A stretch of DNA of 35,729 bases from Flavobacteriales bacterium (GTDB lineage Bacteria; Bacteroidota; Bacteroidia; Flavobacteriales_E; Vicingaceae): positions 1 through 35,729 of the forward strand of contig JAJCYO010000101.1 of NCBI GenBank assembly GCA_029262875.1. Reading direction: 5' to 3'. This document shows, piece by piece, positions 3,166-11,183 of this stretch. The notes beneath the pieces are model-generated. The model saw nothing but the letters and a program-made list of their open reading frames with translations, did not search any database and had not been told where the DNA came from. The translations under genes were made by a program, and so were the position numbers. Each line of letters opens with the position of its first letter. Positions within the stretch are counted from its first letter, which is position 1.

Positions 3166-3173
3166 CAAAGATA
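3166..3173 (-). promoter_or_regulatory. Possible TAnnTTTG promoter element for the DinB gene
   Basis: Read on the minus strand this is TATCTTTG, a match to the Bacteroidota -7 consensus TAnnTTTG. It lies about 77 bases upstream of the DinB ATG and touches the start codon of the divergent phosphomutase gene. No TTG is seen at the expected -33 distance, so support is weak. Confidence 0.35.
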
Positions 3174-4588
3174 TGAACATGACAAAAATAAAATTTGGTA
3201 CTGACGGATGGAGAGCCATTATAGCTAAAGAATTTACGGTAGACAATGTAGCAAGAGTTACATCTGGAGCAACTGAATGGTTGAAACAAAATTTTGACAA
3301 CCCATCTGTAGTGGTTGGTCACGATTGCAGGTATGCAGGAGAGTTGTTTGCAGAAACAACTGCTAAGGTATTTGCCAATGCCGGTATTAAAGTATTGTTA
3401 GCAAAAGGACCCGTTTCAACACCAATGGTTTCATTGGGAACGTTAAAGAGTAATGCTTCTTTAGGAATAGTCTTGACTGCCTCACACAATCCACCAAGCT
3501 ACAATGGTTATAAATTAAAGGGACATTTCGGAGGGCCATTATTGCCAAAAGAAATTCAGGAAGTAGAAGATTTAATTCCAGATGAAAATACTGTGGATAT
3601 AGATAGTTTAGAGCTGGAAGACTTAATTGCTAAAGGACTGGTTGAATATATAGATTTGGAAACAATGTACGTGGATCATGTTGAAGCAAACTTTGACATG
3701 GAGTCCATTAGAAATTCAAAAATGAATTTTGCATATGATGCCATGTTCGGTTCAGGGCAAGATGTTATGAGAAGGTTGCTACCAGAAATTGATTTCTTGC
3801 ATTGTGAGCACAATCCTGGATTTAATGGAACAGCACCAGAACCAATTCACCGGAACTTGGGAGCGTTTTCCGAGATGATAAAAATGGCTGAAGGTCAAAT
3901 TGATTGTGGGCTGGCAACAGATGGAGATGCAGACAGAATTGGATTATACGATAGCAGTGGTGAATTTGTAGATTCTCATCATATTATTTTATTGTTGATT
4001 AAGTACTTGGTAGAAGAAAAGAAATACTCAGGAAAAGTGGTTAATGCTTTTTCAGTAACACCAAAGGTTAAGAAAATGTGCGACCATTATGGGTTAGAAT
4101 ATCAAGTAACCCAAATAGGTTTTAAACATATAGCAGGAATTATGTTGTCAGATGACGTGTTGTTAGGGGGAGAGGAGTCTGGTGGTATTGCAACTAAAGG
4201 GCATATCCCTGAACGCGATGGAATATGGATGGGGTTGATTATTTGGGAGTACATGGTTAAATCTGGTAAAACTTTGGAGGATTTGATCGAGGGTGTTTAT
4301 GAGATTGTTGGAGCATTCAAATTCGAAAGAATAGACATGCATTTAAAAGAAGAAGAAAAGCTAAGCATTGTAGCCAATTGTGAGGCTGATAATTATAAGA
4401 ATTTTGGCGATTTAGAAGTTAGAAGGCTGGAAACAGTTGATGGATTCAAATACTTTTTTGACAATGATGAATGGGTAATGATTCGAGCTTCAGGTACTGA
4501 ACCAGTTTTAAGAACTTACGCAGAGTCTGCTACAACAGAAGGAGCATTTAAAGTGCTTGAAAAAACTCACGCAGAGTTCAAAAAGTAA
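3173..4588 (+). CDS. Phosphoglucomutase/phosphomannomutase family protein
   Basis: This 471-residue enzyme belongs to the alpha-D-phosphohexomutase superfamily, which interconverts sugar 6-phosphates and 1-phosphates through a phosphoserine. The phosphoserine loop TASHNP places the active Ser at residue 104. The Mg-binding loop DGDADR has Asp at 250, 252 and 254. The sugar-specificity loop GGEESGG has E334, E335 and S336, and the C-terminal phosphate-binding loop is RASGTEP. The GEESGG form suits glucose or mannose phosphate more than glucosamine phosphate. An in-frame ATG at 3179 is an equally good start. The next gene begins 4 bases after the stop. In this context it would plausibly feed hexose-1-phosphate into NDP-sugar synthesis, but it could equally be the general cellular enzyme. 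Confidence 0.93.
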   Translation: MNMTKIKFGTDGWRAIIAKEFTVDNVARVTSGATEWLKQNFDNPSVVVGHDCRYAGELFAETTAKVFANAGIKVLLAKGPVSTPMVSLGTLKSNASLGIVLTASHNPPSYNGYKLKGHFGGPLLPKEIQEVEDLIPDENTVDIDSLELEDLIAKGLVEYIDLETMYVDHVEANFDMESIRNSKMNFAYDAMFGSGQDVMRRLLPEIDFLHCEHNPGFNGTAPEPIHRNLGAFSEMIKMAEGQIDCGLATDGDADRIGLYDSSGEFVDSHHIILLLIKYLVEEKKYSGKVVNAFSVTPKVKKMCDHYGLEYQVTQIGFKHIAGIMLSDDVLLGGEESGGIATKGHIPERDGIWMGLIIWEYMVKSGKTLEDLIEGVYEIVGAFKFERIDMHLKEEEKLSIVANCEADNYKNFGDLEVRRLETVDGFKYFFDNDEWVMIRASGTEPVLRTYAESATTEGAFKVLEKTHAEFKK

Positions 4589-4592
4589 TACA

Positions 4593-6014
4593 ATGAGCAA
4601 GGGCGCTGTAGAGCATAGTTTTTTAAAATCAGCGTTAACGCTGGAAAACCCATTCCTTTCTACGGAAGGTTTTATGGAGTGGTTGGCAGCAAAAAAGGCT
4701 AACGTCAACCATAAGGTTACCCCAATTAAGTTTTCTGAAATGAACCATTGGGGGTTCAATGAAACGACTGGAAATTTAGAACATGACTCAGGCAAATTCT
4801 TTTCTATAGAAGGAGTTAAAGTGAAAACCAACTGGGGAAATGTTTCCGAATGGTCACAGCCAATTATCAATCAACCGGAAATAGGTTTTTTAGGAATCAT
4901 TACGAAGAAGATTGATGGGGTTTTATACTTCTTAATGCAGGCTAAAATTGAACCAGGAAACATTAATGCAGTTCAACTTTCACCAACCCTGCAGGCTACA
5001 AAGAGTAATTATACTCAAGTTCATCAAGGAACTGCACCGCTTTACTTAGAATATTTTATAAATGATAGAGCAGATGTTACCGTGTTGTTAGATCAATTGC
5101 AGTCAGAACAAGGAGCTCGATTCTTAAAGAAAAGAAATAGAAACATCATTATAGAAGTAAGTAGTAATGTTGAAGTAAAAGAAGATTTTTGTTGGCTAAC
5201 CTTAGGGCAAATTAAACAACTACTAACACATGATAATGTGATTAATATGGATACCCGGACTGTTATTTCTGGTATTCCTTTTGGAGATTTAGATACGCTA
5301 AGTGCTATAAACGATGTAACCCAGTCTGACCATGAACAAGCATTGTTGAAATCAGAGTTAGATGATAGCAACGCGTTACACAGTATAGAAGCGATTATTT
5401 CATGGATTACGAAGCATAAATCTTTTGCTGAATTGGATGTTCAAAATATCCCATTGAACAGTATTTCCGATTGGCACAAAGATGATACTTCACTTTATCA
5501 CCAAGACCATAAGTATTTTTCTGTAATTGCCGTAAAAGCAGAAATAGGAAACCGTGAAGTACACAATTGGACACAACCTTTAGTAAAGTCTGCTCAAGAA
5601 GGTGTTATTGCTTTTATCATTAAAAAAATTAATGGAACGATCCACTTTTTGGTACAAGCCAAATTGGAAAGTGGAAATTTTGATATTATAGAATTGGCAC
5701 CAACAGTTCAGTGCTTAACCGGAAATTACCGTAAAGGAGAAAACGAGTATGAAGTCGATTTTATTGATTACGTGTTAAACCCCGAATCAAAAAATGCAAC
5801 TGTTCGTTATGCTACTTTTCAGTCGGAAGAAGGCGGACGATTCTTTAAGGAACAGAACAAAAATATGATTATTGAAGTAGGAGATGAGTTTGATGTAACC
5901 GTTCCTGATAAGTATATTTGGATGACTTTAAATCAAATTAAAACATTTATTAAGTTTAATAATTACCTTAACATCCAGTCGAGAAGTTTATTGTCAGCTG
6001 TAAAGTTTGTTTAA
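4593..6014 (+). CDS. NDP-hexose 2,3-dehydratase family protein (EvaA/TylX3-like)
   Basis: The 473-residue product matches the NDP-hexose 2,3-dehydratase family, known from 2,6-dideoxysugar pathways of macrolide and glycopeptide producers. It consists of two homologous halves. The first has WSQPIINQPEIGFLG, YFLMQAKIEPGN and LSPTLQATKSNY. The second has WTQPLVKSAQEGVIAF, HFLVQAKLESGN and LAPTVQCLTGNY. Characterised members remove water from NDP-4-keto-6-deoxyglucose, giving an unstable 3,4-diketo-2,6-dideoxy sugar that a 3-ketoreductase must capture. The start is set at the ATG at 4593; an upstream TTG at 4557 would lie inside the phosphomutase gene. The stop codon abuts the ATG of the following oxidoreductase (TAAATG), consistent with coupled translation. 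Confidence 0.92.
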   Translation: MSKGAVEHSFLKSALTLENPFLSTEGFMEWLAAKKANVNHKVTPIKFSEMNHWGFNETTGNLEHDSGKFFSIEGVKVKTNWGNVSEWSQPIINQPEIGFLGIITKKIDGVLYFLMQAKIEPGNINAVQLSPTLQATKSNYTQVHQGTAPLYLEYFINDRADVTVLLDQLQSEQGARFLKKRNRNIIIEVSSNVEVKEDFCWLTLGQIKQLLTHDNVINMDTRTVISGIPFGDLDTLSAINDVTQSDHEQALLKSELDDSNALHSIEAIISWITKHKSFAELDVQNIPLNSISDWHKDDTSLYHQDHKYFSVIAVKAEIGNREVHNWTQPLVKSAQEGVIAFIIKKINGTIHFLVQAKLESGNFDIIELAPTVQCLTGNYRKGENEYEVDFIDYVLNPESKNATVRYATFQSEEGGRFFKEQNKNMIIEVGDEFDVTVPDKYIWMTLNQIKTFIKFNNYLNIQSRSLLSAVKFV

Positions 6015-6980
6015 ATGAGTAAATTAAGAATAGGAGTTTTAGGTTGTGCCAACATTGCAAAACGCAGTGTAATTCCTGCTATTAAAAGTATAGCTGATTT
6101 TGAATTAGTAGCGATAGCGAGTAGATCCAAAGCAAAAGCAGAAGAATTTGCTACAGCGTTTAATTGTGAGGCGATAGAAGGGTATCAGAACTTAATAGAT
6201 AGAACGGATATTGATGCCATTTATATGCCATTACCAACAGGCTTGCACGAAGAATGGGTAATAAAAGCATTAGAAGCTGGAAAACACATTCACATTGAAA
6301 AATCGTTGGCAATGGATTATGATTCAGCACACAGAATGGTTGATTTGGCACGTCAAAAAGAATTGTTGATTATGGAAAACTTTATGTTCCTATACCACAA
6401 ACAACACCAATTTGTTCAAAATTTAATTGACAAAGGAGAGATAGGAGAAGTTAGGTGTTTTAGAAGTTCTTTTGGTTTTCCTCCGTTAGACTTAGATAAC
6501 TTTAGGTACAACAAAGCATTAGGAGGAGGAGCATTGTTAGATGCTGCAGCCTATACAGTTAGAGCTTCACAGCTATTTTTAGGAAACGACATATGGGTAG
6601 AAGCGGCAACCTTGAATAAGATGAATACTGAAGTAGACCTGTTTGGAGGAGCATATTTAAAAACAGAAAATGGATTGTTTGCAGAAGTCGCTTTTGGATT
6701 TGATAACTTTTACCAATGTAATTATGAAGTATGGGGAAGTAAAGGTAAGATTATTGCCAATAGAGCATTTACGCCTGGAGCTGAATTTAAACCAACCATA
6801 ACAGTAGAACAACAAGGTGAAGTTTTTACACATGAAATTGATGCAGAGAATCATTTCATTAACATTTTAAATGAATTTAAACGTTGTGTAATAGAAAATG
6901 ATGTTGAAACTAAATACGAAGAGATTTTAAATCAAAGTAGATTATTACAAGAACTTAAAGATAAAAGCAAAAATGACTGA
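6015..6980 (+). CDS. Gfo/Idh/MocA family oxidoreductase, candidate NDP-hexose 3-ketoreductase
   Basis: The 321-residue protein has an N-terminal Rossmann domain (IGVLGCANIAK) and the C-terminal alpha/beta domain of the Gfo/Idh/MocA family (GGGALLDAAAYTVRAS). The catalytic Lys is K96, in IEKSLAMDY; the usual EKP motif has Ser for Pro here. Tyr180 in DAAAY matches the second catalytic residue known in sugar 3-ketoreductases such as KijD10. Enzymes of this family act directly after the 2,3-dehydratase in dideoxysugar pathways. Because the two genes abut, I infer 3-keto reduction, most likely with NADPH. The reading frame overlaps the start of the methyltransferase by 8 bases. A different dehydrogenase role on another sugar cannot be excluded. 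Confidence 0.9.
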   Translation: MSKLRIGVLGCANIAKRSVIPAIKSIADFELVAIASRSKAKAEEFATAFNCEAIEGYQNLIDRTDIDAIYMPLPTGLHEEWVIKALEAGKHIHIEKSLAMDYDSAHRMVDLARQKELLIMENFMFLYHKQHQFVQNLIDKGEIGEVRCFRSSFGFPPLDLDNFRYNKALGGGALLDAAAYTVRASQLFLGNDIWVEAATLNKMNTEVDLFGGAYLKTENGLFAEVAFGFDNFYQCNYEVWGSKGKIIANRAFTPGAEFKPTITVEQQGEVFTHEIDAENHFINILNEFKRCVIENDVETKYEEILNQSRLLQELKDKSKND

Positions 6981-7677
6981 GGAAAGGGATTTTGACAATT
7001 TTGATGAACATGCCCAAAACTACCGTGATACGCATAACAAGGTGGTGGAGATGAGTGGTGCTGATAGTGACTACTTTAGCGAATACAAGGTTGTCGAATT
7101 GTTAAAATTTGAAAACCCAAAGCAAACCATGCGTGTATTAGATTTCGGTTGTGGAGATGGCAATAGTTCTATTTATATCAGAAAGCACTTTCCCAATACC
7201 AGTATCTTTGGAATTGATGTTTCTGATGCAAGCGTTAAATTAGCAAATGAAAAAGGCATTACTAATGCTATATTTAAAGCATTTGATGGCGCTAAACTTC
7301 CTTTTGAAGATGAGGAGTTTGATTTGGTATTTACCTCTATGGTATTTCATCATATAGAACATAAATTGCATGATGGAGTCTTAAAAGAAATTTACAGAAC
7401 ATTAAAAAAGGGAGGGAGGTTTTACAATTTTGAACATAACCCTAATAACCCATTAACAAGAAAGGTAGTTAGGGAATGTGAGTTTGATGAAGACGCGGTA
7501 TTACTAAAGCCTTCTTACAATAAAGAAGTAACCAATAAAAGTGGTTTAAAAACAAAGAAGTTAAACTACACCTTGTTTTTTCCTAGGCACAAACTTTTTA
7601 AAATTTTCCTTGGATTAGAAAAAATATTAACTTGGTGTCCAATTGGAGCACAATATTACATTAGGGCCATAAAATAA
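6973..7677 (+). CDS. Class I SAM-dependent methyltransferase
   Basis: The 234-residue enzyme has a standard class I SAM fold. Motif I is LDFGCGDGN, starting near residue 56. The acidic end of strand 2 is GIDVSDAS. A post-motif segment FTSMVFHHIE and the glycine-rich KKGGRFYNFEHNP follow. The fold identifies a small-molecule methyltransferase of the UbiE/Methyltransf_11 type but not its acceptor. It overlaps the oxidoreductase by 8 bases and precedes a lipid-carrier glycosyltransferase, so methylation of the sugar or of the lipid-linked product is a reasonable inference. O-methylation would be chemically similar to the tailoring seen on many dideoxysugars. Confidence 0.88.
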   Translation: MTEERDFDNFDEHAQNYRDTHNKVVEMSGADSDYFSEYKVVELLKFENPKQTMRVLDFGCGDGNSSIYIRKHFPNTSIFGIDVSDASVKLANEKGITNAIFKAFDGAKLPFEDEEFDLVFTSMVFHHIEHKLHDGVLKEIYRTLKKGGRFYNFEHNPNNPLTRKVVRECEFDEDAVLLKPSYNKEVTNKSGLKTKKLNYTLFFPRHKLFKIFLGLEKILTWCPIGAQYYIRAIK

Positions 7678-7693
7678 GCTTGATAATTTAAGT

Positions 7694-8626
7694 ATGAATA
7701 ACGAAGTAGTAGAAATATCAATAGTTAGTCCAGTTTATAGAGCAGAAAGCCTTGTTGATAAGCTAATAGAACGAATAACCAATTCAGTTTCTAAGTTAAC
7801 TGATAGCTATGAAATCATCTTGGTAGAAGATTGTGGACCTGATAATTCTTGGAAAAAAATTCAGGAGAACTGTGCAAAATATACAACTGTAAAAGGCATC
7901 AAGTTAAGCCGTAATTACGGACAACAACATGCGATACAAGCTGGTCTGGATGCCAGTACTGGTAAGTACATCATTACCATGGATTGCGACTTACAAGATC
8001 AACCAGAAGAAATAGAAAAGTTATTGGCCAAATCAAAAGAAGGTTATGAAATTGTTGTTGCTAGCCGTAAAAACAGACAAGATGATTTCTTCAAGAAGAC
8101 TTTCTCAAGAATGTTTTATTCAACCTTAGGTTATTTAACAGAAACCAAACAAGATCGGACAGTGGCTAATTTTGTGGTTTACCATAGAAAGGCAGTAAAC
8201 GCTATGGCAAGTTTAAAAGATCACAACAGGTACTACCCAATGTTGCAGCAAATGGTAGGATTTAATTATGCTAAAGTAGCAATTGAACATGCAGAAAGAG
8301 AGGATGGAAAATCATCCTACTCTTATAAGAAACGTTTGAAATTAGCTATAGACACTATTTTAACGTTCTCAGATAAACCCTTGCGTTTAACAGTTAAATT
8401 TGGTGTTTTCTTGTCATTTTTATCAATATGCGCTGCTATGGCGATGGTTGTTTTGTACGTTTTTAGTGATGTAAAAGCAGATGGATGGGCGAGTTTAGCA
8501 TTGTTGGTTAGTTTTTTCTCTGGGATTATCATTTCCGTTTTAGGAATGGTAGGCTTATATGTTGGTAGAACATTTGAAAGTGTTAAGCATAGACCAACCT
8601 ACATTGTACAAGAGAAGCTAAATTAA
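7694..8626 (+). CDS. GT2 glycosyltransferase, polyprenyl-phosphate type (DPM1/GtrB/ArnC-like)
   Basis: The 310-residue protein starts with a GT2 domain (ISIVSPVYRAES) containing the nucleotide-sugar/metal motif D97-C-D99 in MDCDLQDQPEE. It ends with two transmembrane helices between roughly residues 235 and 293 and the conserved tail FESVKHRPTYIVQEK. This architecture is that of enzymes that transfer a sugar from an NDP donor to polyprenyl phosphate on the cytoplasmic face of the inner membrane. Such carriers then feed GT-C enzymes on the other side. A GT-C-like gene lies two genes downstream in the same unit. Which sugar is loaded cannot be read from sequence; the neighbours suggest a 2-deoxysugar. 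Confidence 0.92.
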   Translation: MNNEVVEISIVSPVYRAESLVDKLIERITNSVSKLTDSYEIILVEDCGPDNSWKKIQENCAKYTTVKGIKLSRNYGQQHAIQAGLDASTGKYIITMDCDLQDQPEEIEKLLAKSKEGYEIVVASRKNRQDDFFKKTFSRMFYSTLGYLTETKQDRTVANFVVYHRKAVNAMASLKDHNRYYPMLQQMVGFNYAKVAIEHAEREDGKSSYSYKKRLKLAIDTILTFSDKPLRLTVKFGVFLSFLSICAAMAMVVLYVFSDVKADGWASLALLVSFFSGIIISVLGMVGLYVGRTFESVKHRPTYIVQEKLN

Positions 8627-8634
8627 TTCAGGCC

Positions 8635-9513
8635 ATGAAAAAAGCGATACTATTTGGAGCTAATGGTTATTTAGGAAGACACATCGCCTACTTTTTAAAA
8701 CAACAACAAATTGAATTTATACCCACCGATATAGCAGAAAACTCTATTGATGATTATGCCAACTATCAAAAAATAGATGTCACTCAAAAAACCGATTTAC
8801 AACAATTAGATTTTGATGTGGATTATGTTTTTTCCTTTGCAGGCCTTACGGGAACAGGTTCCTTATTGGAAGTCGTAGAGCGATTTACAAAGGTAAATGA
8901 ACGAGGATTAGCTAATATTCTTGAATGCTGTGATGGATATGGTTTAAGACTTATATTCCCATCAACGCGATTAGTATATAAAGGAATTGAAAACACCACA
9001 TTAAAGGAAGATTCAGAAAAAGAGGCTAAAACTATTTATGCTAAAAATAAATTAGTTTGTGAGGACATGTTGATGAATTCAAATGTTGAATCTACTGTTT
9101 TTCGAATTTGTGTTCCATATGGTAACCTTATCGATAAAGAATACTCCTACGGGACTATAGGTTTCTTTATTAATAAAGCTTTAAAAGGAGAGAACATTAC
9201 CATCTATGGCGATGGAAGTCTAAAGAGAACTTTTACACACGTTAGTGATATTGCACAAACAATACTTAGTAGCCTTGAAATTAAAACAACAATTAATGAT
9301 GTTTATAATATTGGAAGTAATGATGCTTTAAGTTTGTTAGAAGTTGCTAATTTAGTGGCGCTAAAGTATGGCGTTGATGTCGAATTTGTTGATTGGCCAG
9401 AAGAAGCGTTGAAAATTGAGTCTGGAGACACTATTTTTGATGATGAAAAGCTGTTGAATACTATTGACTATAGATATAAACATTCATTAACAGAATGGAT
9501 TACTGAAATATGA
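8635..9513 (+). CDS. NAD-dependent epimerase/dehydratase family protein (extended SDR)
   Basis: The 292-residue protein is an extended short-chain dehydrogenase. It has the nucleotide-binding motif GANGYLG near the N-terminus, the catalytic Ser/Thr pair S110-T111 in FPSTRLVY, and the YxxxK pair Y135 and K139 in YAKNKL. The later FTHVSDIAQ and YNIGSNDALSLLEVA segments are characteristic of sugar-nucleotide SDRs. Given the upstream 2,3-dehydratase and 3-ketoreductase, a 4-ketoreductase finishing an NDP-2,6-dideoxyhexose is the simplest assignment. A 4-epimerase or 4,6-dehydratase is possible, though the active-site Thr-Asp-Glu pattern of 4,6-dehydratases is absent. Its stop overlaps the ATG of the next gene. 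Confidence 0.88.
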   Translation: MKKAILFGANGYLGRHIAYFLKQQQIEFIPTDIAENSIDDYANYQKIDVTQKTDLQQLDFDVDYVFSFAGLTGTGSLLEVVERFTKVNERGLANILECCDGYGLRLIFPSTRLVYKGIENTTLKEDSEKEAKTIYAKNKLVCEDMLMNSNVESTVFRICVPYGNLIDKEYSYGTIGFFINKALKGENITIYGDGSLKRTFTHVSDIAQTILSSLEIKTTINDVYNIGSNDALSLLEVANLVALKYGVDVEFVDWPEEALKIESGDTIFDDEKLLNTIDYRYKHSLTEWITEI

Positions 9514-11183
9514 GTAAAAAAGGATCACATAAAAAACAAAAAGAGGTACCTGCAGCCGAAGTTGAAAAAACGGTTGAGTCTAAAGAAGTTAGTAACATAA
9601 CTATCCTTATTCTTACGGGTGTATTAGCTGTTGTCTATTTCATTTTTTCGACATTTTCAGATGGGTTTTACCAACATGATGAAGTAGGTAATTTCATGGC
9701 TGCTCAACGCATTTGGTACGATAGCATTATACAAATCCTTGGAGCCAATACTAAGTCTGGGTATAGATTGCTTTATGCATTGCCCGCATTAGGAGGGTTT
9801 ACATTCCTTAAGTTCTTTAATAGTCTTGTGGCCGCATTTACAGTCTATTTTTCTTATAAGCTATTAGCCAAATTGGGTAGCAAGAATAAATTGCTGATAT
9901 TTTTTGTTTTAGGACTACAGCCTTTATGGTTTATGCTTTCCTTTAGGAATTATGCAGAGTTAACAGTTGCCTTTTTATTGGTGTTAGGTGCGCTGCAGTT
10001 CTTTAATAAAAAGTACATTTTTACTGCACTTATCGTTTCTTATATAGCTTTTACCAGACAGGAATATCACCTTATATCTGGCTTGTTGTTTTTAGTGCTA
10101 GCATTTAAAAAGGAATGGATTGCAGCTTTACTTACAGGAACATTTACAGTATTACAAAATGTAATAGGCTATATTATTACTGGGGACATTTTATACCTGC
10201 CGAACTCAGTAATGGAATACTCAAAGAAGATTGAAGGAATATGGCCAAAACAAGGTTTTGACCACTACCTTACAATGTCTAATGTAATATTTGGGTCAAT
10301 TGCCATAACACTGTTTGTAGCTTATATTGGAATTACGATTGTAAAGAAGAAGAAGCCGAATCTTTTCTTATTGATTCCTGTTGTTTTTATTTTCTTTTTA
10401 AATTGTGCATTTCAAGCAGAATCGTTCACGTTAGGACCTGGAAACGGAGGTAACCTTAGGTATTTAATTACAATTTCACCTTTAATAGGTATAATCGGAG
10501 TTATGGCTGTTGATGAGATAATGGACTTTAATAAAAAACATCTTCTGTTAATTTTTCTAATTCCATTAGCAGTCTTAGTTTATGCATTCCAAAGTTATGC
10601 TCATTTAAATTATGGGTTACACTTAAGTGATGGACTACATAACACGGAAGAGATAGAAAACTGGATTCCATTAATTTTCACCATTATTGTTGCTGCGCTC
10701 TTAATAATGCCACTAAAGAAAAAGCACTATCTTATTGGTATTGCTGCTGTCTCCATTATAGTTGGAGTGACATCCATTACAACAAGAAAAATACAACCAG
10801 AAGAGAAAGCTGTAAAGAAAGCGGCTAAGTGGTATACCAACCATGTAAAGTTGGATCAAAATCCACAAACAGCTCAAAATCAATTGTATTCTGATACTAA
10901 CCGTGTAGCTTGTGGACATGCCTTGTTTTATTACTATTTAGGTAAGAATAAATATGATTTCATTAAGCCATCTATTATGACTTACCTTGATCAAGAAACT
11001 ATAGATACCCTTGATAGAGGAGATATTATTATTTGGGATTCTCATTATGGTGATCGGAGGGAAGTTCCTACAAGTCAACCTTACCAGTATTATGAAGATA
11101 GTCCAAATTATCAGAGAATACAATATTATCAATCCACAGATAATAGGTTTACGATTGTCTTCTTTAAAAAAATGATAGATTAA
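9510..11183 (+). CDS. Polytopic membrane protein, GT-C (ArnT/PMT-like) glycosyltransferase candidate
   Basis: The 557-residue protein has a charged cytoplasmic head rich in Lys and Glu, about ten or more hydrophobic helices, and a soluble tail of roughly 130 residues. The first outside loop carries an acidic motif (QHDEVGNFMAAQRIW, H56-D57-E58), the position where GT-C enzymes keep their catalytic Asp or Glu. This suggests a lipid-phosphate-sugar dependent transferase acting on the periplasmic face, as in ArnT, PMT or GtrC-like enzymes. The family is assigned from topology and the acidic loop, not from close identity. The overlapping ATGA with the SDR gene ties it to the deoxysugar unit. The acceptor could be LPS, a surface protein or another glycan. 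Confidence 0.75.
   Translation: MSKKGSHKKQKEVPAAEVEKTVESKEVSNITILILTGVLAVVYFIFSTFSDGFYQHDEVGNFMAAQRIWYDSIIQILGANTKSGYRLLYALPALGGFTFLKFFNSLVAAFTVYFSYKLLAKLGSKNKLLIFFVLGLQPLWFMLSFRNYAELTVAFLLVLGALQFFNKKYIFTALIVSYIAFTRQEYHLISGLLFLVLAFKKEWIAALLTGTFTVLQNVIGYIITGDILYLPNSVMEYSKKIEGIWPKQGFDHYLTMSNVIFGSIAITLFVAYIGITIVKKKKPNLFLLIPVVFIFFLNCAFQAESFTLGPGNGGNLRYLITISPLIGIIGVMAVDEIMDFNKKHLLLIFLIPLAVLVYAFQSYAHLNYGLHLSDGLHNTEEIENWIPLIFTIIVAALLIMPLKKKHYLIGIAAVSIIVGVTSITTRKIQPEEKAVKKAAKWYTNHVKLDQNPQTAQNQLYSDTNRVACGHALFYYYLGKNKYDFIKPSIMTYLDQETIDTLDRGDIIIWDSHYGDRREVPTSQPYQYYEDSPNYQRIQYYQSTDNRFTIVFFKKMID

Follow-up and report, generated by a model that had tools for sequence, protein, structure and literature searches.

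A candidate gene cassette for lipid-carrier glycosylation with a 2,6-dideoxyhexose in a Flavobacteriales bacterium

Described systems closest to the cassette

O-antigen glucosylation in Shigella and Salmonella depends on GtrABC systems, in which a GtrB-like glycosyltransferase of family GT2 charges polyprenyl phosphate and a GT-C glycosyltransferase transfers the sugar in the periplasm. The donor part of GtrABC is constant and the GT-C changes, as is usual in serotype-converting systems. A cassette resembling GtrABC was found in the stretch of DNA analysed here (the window, 35,729 nucleotides), which makes up contig C101 in an assembly of 173 contigs and 3.94 Mb from a Flavobacteriales bacterium. 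The cassette probably directs the sugar of a dTDP-2,6-dideoxyhexose by way of polyprenyl phosphate to a periplasmic acceptor. It differs from GtrABC in that its donor would be a dTDP-2,6-dideoxyhexose made by the cassette's own genes, and in that no GtrA gene was found in the window by a search limited to that flippase type.

The pentofuranose system of Citrobacter youngae (GT136), also of three components, shares the scheme of a rare sugar on a lipid carrier; according to passages of PMC11127046 it differs in starting from PRPP and in using a phosphoribosyl synthase and a MATE flippase, with no dTDP-sugar or GT2. ArnC and ArnT, which transfer 4-amino-4-deoxy-L-arabinose (Ara4N) to lipid A, rank with the nearest proteins of solved structure, ArnC for the GT2 and ArnT for the GT-C model, but the GT2 scores under the ArnC equivalog cut-off and no Ara4N genes were recognised among the seven genes of the locus. 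A 2,3-dehydratase and a Gfo/Idh 3-ketoreductase (KR) are shared with the antibiotic deoxysugar pathways of EvaA and KijD10 (which we take to be those of chloroeremomycin and kijanimicin). The sugars of these pathways go onto small molecules, whereas the transferases of the cassette are of the lipid-carrier kind. Sugars of the 2,6-dideoxyhexose class are familiar mainly from antibiotics.

A 2,6-dideoxyhexose also occurs as an optional branch on a surface glycan of a Bacteroidota species, the O-glycan of Tannerella forsythia (passages of PMC4030854 and PMC8550257). In its S-layer glycan the dideoxyhexose was identified as digitoxose (PMC4030854); the glycoforms vary by digitoxose and fucose on the reducing-end galactose, the commonest form lacking both, and the core glycosyltransferases are described as unknown (PMC8550257). 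Genes that would make or transfer digitoxose are not named in the same passages. In the main text of PMC6120980 'dehydratase', 'ketoreductase' and 'TDP' are absent as whole words. There was no match for digitoxose or dideoxy in the T. serpentiformis paper PMC11632369, nor for digitoxose or olivose in the marine lipopolysaccharide review PMC3210612, hence the sugar is not known to occur generally. No description of a polyprenyl-phosphate-linked 2,6-dideoxyhexose was found in the titles and abstract openings of the open-licence papers listed, at most 20 per literature search.

The enzymes and the proposed route

The seven contiguous plus-strand open reading frames (ORFs) claimed by the original prediction are present at 3173-11183 in the ORF list of the window (Table 1). 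Gaps of 4 bases (mutase-dehydratase), 0 (dehydratase-KR), 16 (methyltransferase-GT2) and 8 (GT2 to the short-chain dehydrogenase/reductase, SDR) separate the genes; KR and methyltransferase overlap by 8 bases, SDR and GT-C by 4. The last six are spaced as had been stated, overlapping or 0-16 bases apart. ATG 4593, four bases past the mutase, is the probable start of the dehydratase; TTG 4557, the start in the ORF list, would overlap the mutase.

Table 1. Genes of the locus (window coordinates)
Feature	Coordinates	Strand	Basis
Phosphohexomutase, GlmM/PMM superfamily, neighbour gene	3173..4588	+	Pfam PGM_PMM I-IV
NDP-hexose 2,3-dehydratase, EvaA/TylX3 type, two tandem domains	4593..6014	+	PF03559 x2
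Gfo/Idh sugar 3-ketoreductase (KR), KijD10 type	6015..6980	+	PDB 3rbv match
Class I S-adenosylmethionine (SAM)-dependent methyltransferase	6973..7677	+	Methyltransf_25/11
Polyprenyl-phosphate GT2, GtrB/ArnC-like	7694..8626	+	PF00535
SDR, RmlD/epimerase type, candidate 4-ketoreductase	8635..9513	+	PF01370, PF04321
Predicted GT-C fold glycosyltransferase, candidate periplasmic transferase	9510..11183	+	AlphaFold2 model

The two PF03559 (Hexose_dehydrat) stretches of the dehydratase scored 503.6 bits against a curated Pfam cut-off of 25, and at E 0.001 the PDB offered EvaA (4j7g, E 8.9e-110) as its sole relative. The best PDB match of the KR was KijD10 (E 2.1e-76), the next other protein following at 1.1e-32; judged by these matches the Gfo/Idh enzyme stands far closer to KijD10 than to any other solved protein. 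KijD10 is represented in the PDB by four sequences, which vary at one Lys and one Tyr. The KR keeps both, K96 aligning with the residue altered in 3rc9 and 3rcb, and Y180 with the residue altered in 3rc7. The 2,3-dehydratase and candidate 3-ketoreductase of the original prediction agree with these results, and it appears nearly certain that the pair would catalyse 2,3-dehydration and C3 reduction. RmlA and RmlB, which had been expected outside the window, were located above the curated cut-offs on other contigs of the assembly (C55:17522-18373 and C97:5030-6016). The cell should therefore have dTDP-4-keto-6-deoxyglucose at its disposal, from which a 2,6-dideoxy product would most naturally follow. 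The seven proteins gave no Pfam match to the 3,5-epimerase family, which would leave a D-sugar.

The SDR scored 78.3 bits with PF04321 (Pfam cut-off 27), also matched PF01370 and contains a YxxxK motif (YAKNK at residue 135). It stayed under every NCBIfam cut-off, including that of RmlD (TIGR01214, 53 against 224.05 bits). It recurs with dehydratase and KR as a 4-ketoreductase would, in line with the original assignment, and quite probably carries out the C4 reduction. The methyltransferase, class I by its Pfam matches, is probably a sugar O- or C-methyltransferase; that a methyl group is placed on this sugar is an evenly balanced proposition.

The GT2 carries a DCD motif at residue 97 and two hydrophobic segments in addition to its Pfam domain. 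It matched sll0501 (8.7e-57) and ArnC (4.7e-52) in the PDB and the GtrB-like phrog_841 among PHROGs (9.5e-73). GT2 domain, DxD, hydrophobic segments and full-length similarity to GtrB and ArnC together characterise it as GtrB/ArnC-like, as the original prediction had it. It scored under the equivalog cut-offs of ArnC (NF007986, 200.2 of 529 bits) and PgfS (NF047588, 217.5 of 500 bits). Probably this enzyme loads the dideoxysugar of the cassette.

The last protein, with approximately 8 hydrophobic segments by a simple count, had no sequence match in Pfam, NCBIfam, PHROG or PDB, and therefore the structure route was taken. For the AlphaFold2 model, obtained from a 27-row alignment (pLDDT 88.5, pTM 0.89), the top Foldseek ranks were ALG12, ArnT, ALG9 and oligosaccharyltransferase (OST). 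VIA-align comparison gave Z 23.8 with ALG12 (rmsd 6.0, 426 aligned), Z 23.5 with ArnT 5f15 (rmsd 4.5, 419 aligned) and Z 22.6 with Pmt (rmsd 4.0, 337 aligned). The best 47 rows were GT-C enzymes or complexes containing one, if PIG-U-type rows are counted as GT-C, as we presume they should be; row 48 fell to Z 5.6. The protein is thus predicted to have a GT-C fold, which bears out the GT-C-like transferase named originally. Its HDE at residues 56-58, with D57 nearly invariant across the 27 rows, presumably corresponds to the acidic motif in the first outer loop of GT-C enzymes. It is fairly probable that this protein would transfer the sugar of the cassette.

In the proposed route, RmlA and RmlB, encoded elsewhere, would supply dTDP-4-keto-6-deoxyglucose. 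The 2,3-dehydratase would take off the 2-OH, the KR would reduce C3 and the SDR would reduce C4 to yield a dTDP-2,6-dideoxyhexose of the olivose/oliose/digitoxose class, with the methyltransferase probably attaching one methyl group. On the cytoplasmic face the GT2 would transfer the sugar onto polyprenyl phosphate, and a flippase encoded elsewhere would flip the lipid-linked sugar. The GT-C would then join the sugar to an acceptor in the periplasm, where it would most likely form a side branch of a surface glycan or glycoprotein. This route is based on sequence, structure prediction and gene context, namely the enzyme families, the predicted GT-C fold and the linkage of the GT2 with sugar genes; from these we infer the substrates, the step order, the methylation, the flippase and the acceptor. 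A candidate for the flippase is the sole GtrA of the genome (PF04138, C153:18035-18376), located beside a small membrane-protein ORF. A similar pair was seen by eye in the relative G016 (L196).

Occurrence in relatives and in distant genomes

The dehydratase was present in the genome itself, in 13/13 genomes of the same genus, in 6/6 of genus g4 and in 2/4 of g5, and in none of the genomes searched from the family's other genera (0/22) or from outside the family (0/54). PF03559 was found in 9 of 395 genomes of a class sample (six of the same family, three others) and in 3 of 395 of a phylum sample, the window included in both. A divergent PF03559 protein (L193:9744-11015 in G205, 25% identity) has no KijD10-like gene adjoining and a weak Gfo/Idh match 6 kb off.

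Dehydratase, KR and GT2 occurred together in all 18 relative loci that were read, and the methyltransferase in 17; therefore the grouping is not due to chance. The SDR was found in 10 and the GT-C in 6 of these loci, and a seventh GT-C (26% identity) in a longer stretch of G012; the contigs of L035, L039 and L048 end too early to judge SDR and GT-C. A genome-wide search detected a GT-C homologue in 9 of the 13 same-genus genomes (E 4.9e-40 or better). The original prediction was to be abandoned if its genes did not co-occur in relatives: co-occurrence held for dehydratase, KR, GT2 and methyltransferase, only in part for SDR and GT-C, and not for the mutase.

In the loci that have it, the GT-C is much less conserved than the donor genes. 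Its identities to the window protein in the seven loci were 84 (a split ORF whose best piece covers 65%), 84, 47, 35, 62, 26 and 52%. The corresponding values were 86, 82, 84, 83, 75, 73 and 73% for the dehydratase and 89, 88, 85, 84, 72, 69 and 68% for BamD. Serotype-converting systems show this pattern of a constant donor and a changing GT-C; fast drift of a membrane protein may also be the cause. In G013 (L034:6277-7948) the GT-C gene lies in overlapping pieces with stops inside the match, owing to decay or sequencing error.

The mutase contains PF02878-02880 and PF00408; its best NCBIfam match, TIGR03990, reached 277 bits (cut-off 439). A match was present in 47/47 genomes searched, the window's own included, with at least 50% identity in 43; in four genomes outside the family only matches of 27-31% were found. 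All 29 family genomes had a mutase of at least 62% identity, 14 of them without the dehydratase. The gene adjoins the dehydratase in L034, L035, L038, L041 and L042; in L036, L037 and L051 a further gene intervenes. The mutase lies on another contig in G012 and is 143 kb from the cassette in G016. Because it occurs in genomes without dehydratase and, in several relatives, away from the cassette, the mutase, originally placed at the opening of the route, was rejected as the first pathway step. Six genes form one tight cassette, and the mutase is a conserved neighbour outside the conserved unit.

From a collection of 84,980 species genomes the best 80 of 369 confirmed relatives of the dehydratase were kept, 16 from the window's family and 64 from outside it. 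Genes within 6 kb of the dehydratase were called at bit thresholds chosen after a first inspection of the loci (KR at least 170, SDR 200, GT2 240, methyltransferase 150). The 64 outside loci contained KR in 56, SDR in 29, GT2 in 14, all three in 11 and methyltransferase in 2. Among the 39 that extend 3 kb ahead of the dehydratase and 5 kb beyond it, the respective counts were 38, 21, 10, 8 and 1. The GT2 threshold was reached in 0/20 RmlB-centred control loci (best 111 bits), which were best-scoring hits, one per genome, of unmatched lineage, three on stretches <20 kb. On the stretches fetched around the dehydratase, RmlA homologues >200 bits were present in 8 and RmlB in 7 of the 80 loci. Bearers of KR, GT2 and SDR include Lacihabitans sp. 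CS3-21 (L118), whose record has no label as a metagenome-assembled genome (MAG), and MAGs of Leadbetterella, Arenicella and Aminicenantes, although MAG contigs can be misbinned. The original prediction knew of no described Bacteroidota system of this composition; its Bacteroidota scope was too narrow, since dehydratase, KR, GT2 and SDR also occur together in the Arenicella and Aminicenantes MAGs. A phage collection gave no dehydratase match.

The best GT2 in 295 other phylum genomes had at most 49% identity to that of the window (at most 7 first-look candidates scored per genome), and dehydratase-linked GT2s outside the family had up to 64%. A tree was made of 40 of 64 GT2-like ORFs; those omitted were family members almost identical to others, L124, which is partial, and a number of distant rows. 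In this tree 18 of 19 dehydratase-linked GT2s formed one clade (support 100/99). The nearest unlinked Bacteroidota GT2s, from eight genomes (40-49% identity), and a second GT2 of G006 joined them in a 28-row clade (100/100), within which the unlinked enzymes made two groups (87/84 and 98/97) that the tree did not unite. By sight, the loci of the eight contain a DegT-type ORF (8/8) and a GNAT-type ORF (7/8). In profile searches the G006 aminotransferase exceeded the WecE cut-off (550 against 375 bits), its truncated counterpart in L201 reached 369 bits, and four acetyltransferases tested had WecD as best match, each under its cut-off. The nearest unlinked GT2s stand beside WecE-like genes, and therefore each kind of GT2 accompanies its own branch from dTDP-4-keto-6-deoxyglucose, the WecE branch being that of another dTDP-6-deoxyhexose. 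G006 holds both GT2 sets in one stretch ahead of bamD, the part from GT-C to bamD (L195:8756-12749) comprising the second GT2, WecD-like and WecE genes and a protein with approximately 9 hydrophobic segments; the site looks as if it were collecting glycosylation genes.

GT-C homologues turned up in 12 of the 394 further genomes in the phylum sample, and a GT2 of this type with approximately 30% identity adjoins the GT-C in four of the eight such loci read (G269, G141, G221 and G273). Among eight large polytopic ORFs near distant dehydratases, PMT was over its cut-off in L075 and GtrII in L089, and PMT_2 matched weakly in L127. Two small ORFs near distant dehydratases (L127 and L092) were both GtrA.

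Contrary observations, rival explanations and neighbouring features

Several observations weigh against the proposed route. The host has no known enzyme activity or glycan. Neither SDR nor GT-C lies beside the cassette in six roomy loci (L040, L044-L047 and L049), and in genus g4 the SDR stands apart from the cassette. A GT-C homologue is missing genome-wide from 4 of the 13 same-genus genomes (G003, G005, G008 and G011) and from G016 and G029 of genus g4, G030 of g5 having one; the G005 locus is also without methyltransferase. Only 14 of the 64 distant dehydratases (10 of the 39 whose flanks are long enough) have the GT2 nearby, which means that the sugar is frequently used without this GT2. 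The linked GT2 of L092, separated from the KR by an opposite-strand ORF, fell outside the clade on a long branch of unsure placement. Two of the eight GT-C homologue loci had a weak GT2 match only (L188 and L190) and two had none (L184 and L189). No transferase family was matched by five of the eight polytopic neighbours (L118, L074, L080, L097 and L124). For the one in Lacihabitans (L118) a model from two sequences reached pLDDT 36, the PDB gave one chance match (E 0.31) and NCBIfam none. The absence of GtrA from the window also counts here.

In one rival explanation the sugar genes and the membrane transferases serve different sugars, the dideoxysugar going to a cytoplasmic transferase (O-antigen or exopolysaccharide) and GT2 plus GT-C adding glucose or another common sugar. 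At the threshold used, 50 of the 64 distant loci, some on short contigs, had no GT2 of this kind within 6 kb, and characterised GtrB enzymes use UDP-glucose, GtrB being named as undecaprenyl-phosphate-glucose (Und-P-Glc) synthase in a passage of PMC11127046. Yet the GT2 gene is located between KR and SDR in L080, L096, L097, L118, L135, L137, L075 and L089, the dehydratase-linked GT2s share a clade whose nearest unlinked relatives sit with WecE-type genes, and no control locus had such a GT2. Separate sugars are considered unlikely. In a second rival explanation the end product would be another 2-deoxysugar, C-methylated or epimerised, with the SDR acting as epimerase or methylation of a ketosugar preceding reduction. 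The failure of the SDR to reach any NCBIfam cut-off would allow this, as would the methyltransferase gene between dehydratase and KR in two distant loci (L075 and L089) and a PF08421/PF08484 C-methyltransferase, in two separate ORFs, in the relative G012 (L194:7799-9034). Against it, the SDR accompanies dehydratase and KR without this GT2 in 17 distant loci (e.g. L081, L087, L090, L091 and L119), which fits a 4-ketoreductase, and such a product seems distinctly unlikely. Glycosylation of an antibiotic-like secondary metabolite is highly improbable. The first steps are indeed those of actinobacterial antibiotic sugars, and 75 of 85 plasmid records with a homologous dehydratase (all <60% identity) are from Streptomyces. 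But no polyketide or peptide synthase was recognised among the window ORFs (by eye, the family search covering the seven genes), the flanking genes resemble what we take to be MltG, BamD, CoaBC and RecN, and both transferases are membrane proteins of lipid-carrier types.

If the route to a periplasmic acceptor is true, bacteria also make dideoxysugars of the antibiotic type for their own surface via a lipid carrier, with a constant donor module and an acceptor enzyme quick to change, and a new donor for glycan engineering could become available. The cassette is a possible lead to the origin of digitoxose on Bacteroidota glycoproteins, and it offers defined candidate genes for an open question of Bacteroidota O-glycosylation, the maker and attacher of the digitoxose branch. 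A wider proposal is doubtful: that a dTDP-2,6-dideoxyhexose three-component system, with conserved donor genes and a fast-changing GT-C, is a general route to digitoxose-type glycoprotein branches and explains the digitoxose of T. forsythia.

Between 2800 and 12500 a promoter scan gave 37 hits (shuffle mean 39.4) and a terminator scan 4 (shuffle mean 5.1). The hits being no more than in shuffles, no operon ends were drawn from the scan. Neither Rfam, at gathering thresholds, nor a tRNA scan matched anything in the window. A gene with tetratricopeptide repeat (TPR) and SpoIIE-phosphatase parts is in or next to the cassette in L038 (12411-14726), where PF07228 was tested, and by sight in L035, L036, L037, L041, L042, L043, L045, L050 and L051. 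Its place varies: it follows the GT2, or separates GT2 from SDR or mutase from dehydratase; none was seen in the window's own locus. Downstream, 63 bases separate the 3' end of the GT-C gene from the gene presumed to be BamD-like. Upstream, the C-terminus of the ORF at 1415-2569 resembles what we take to be a type IX secretion sorting domain.

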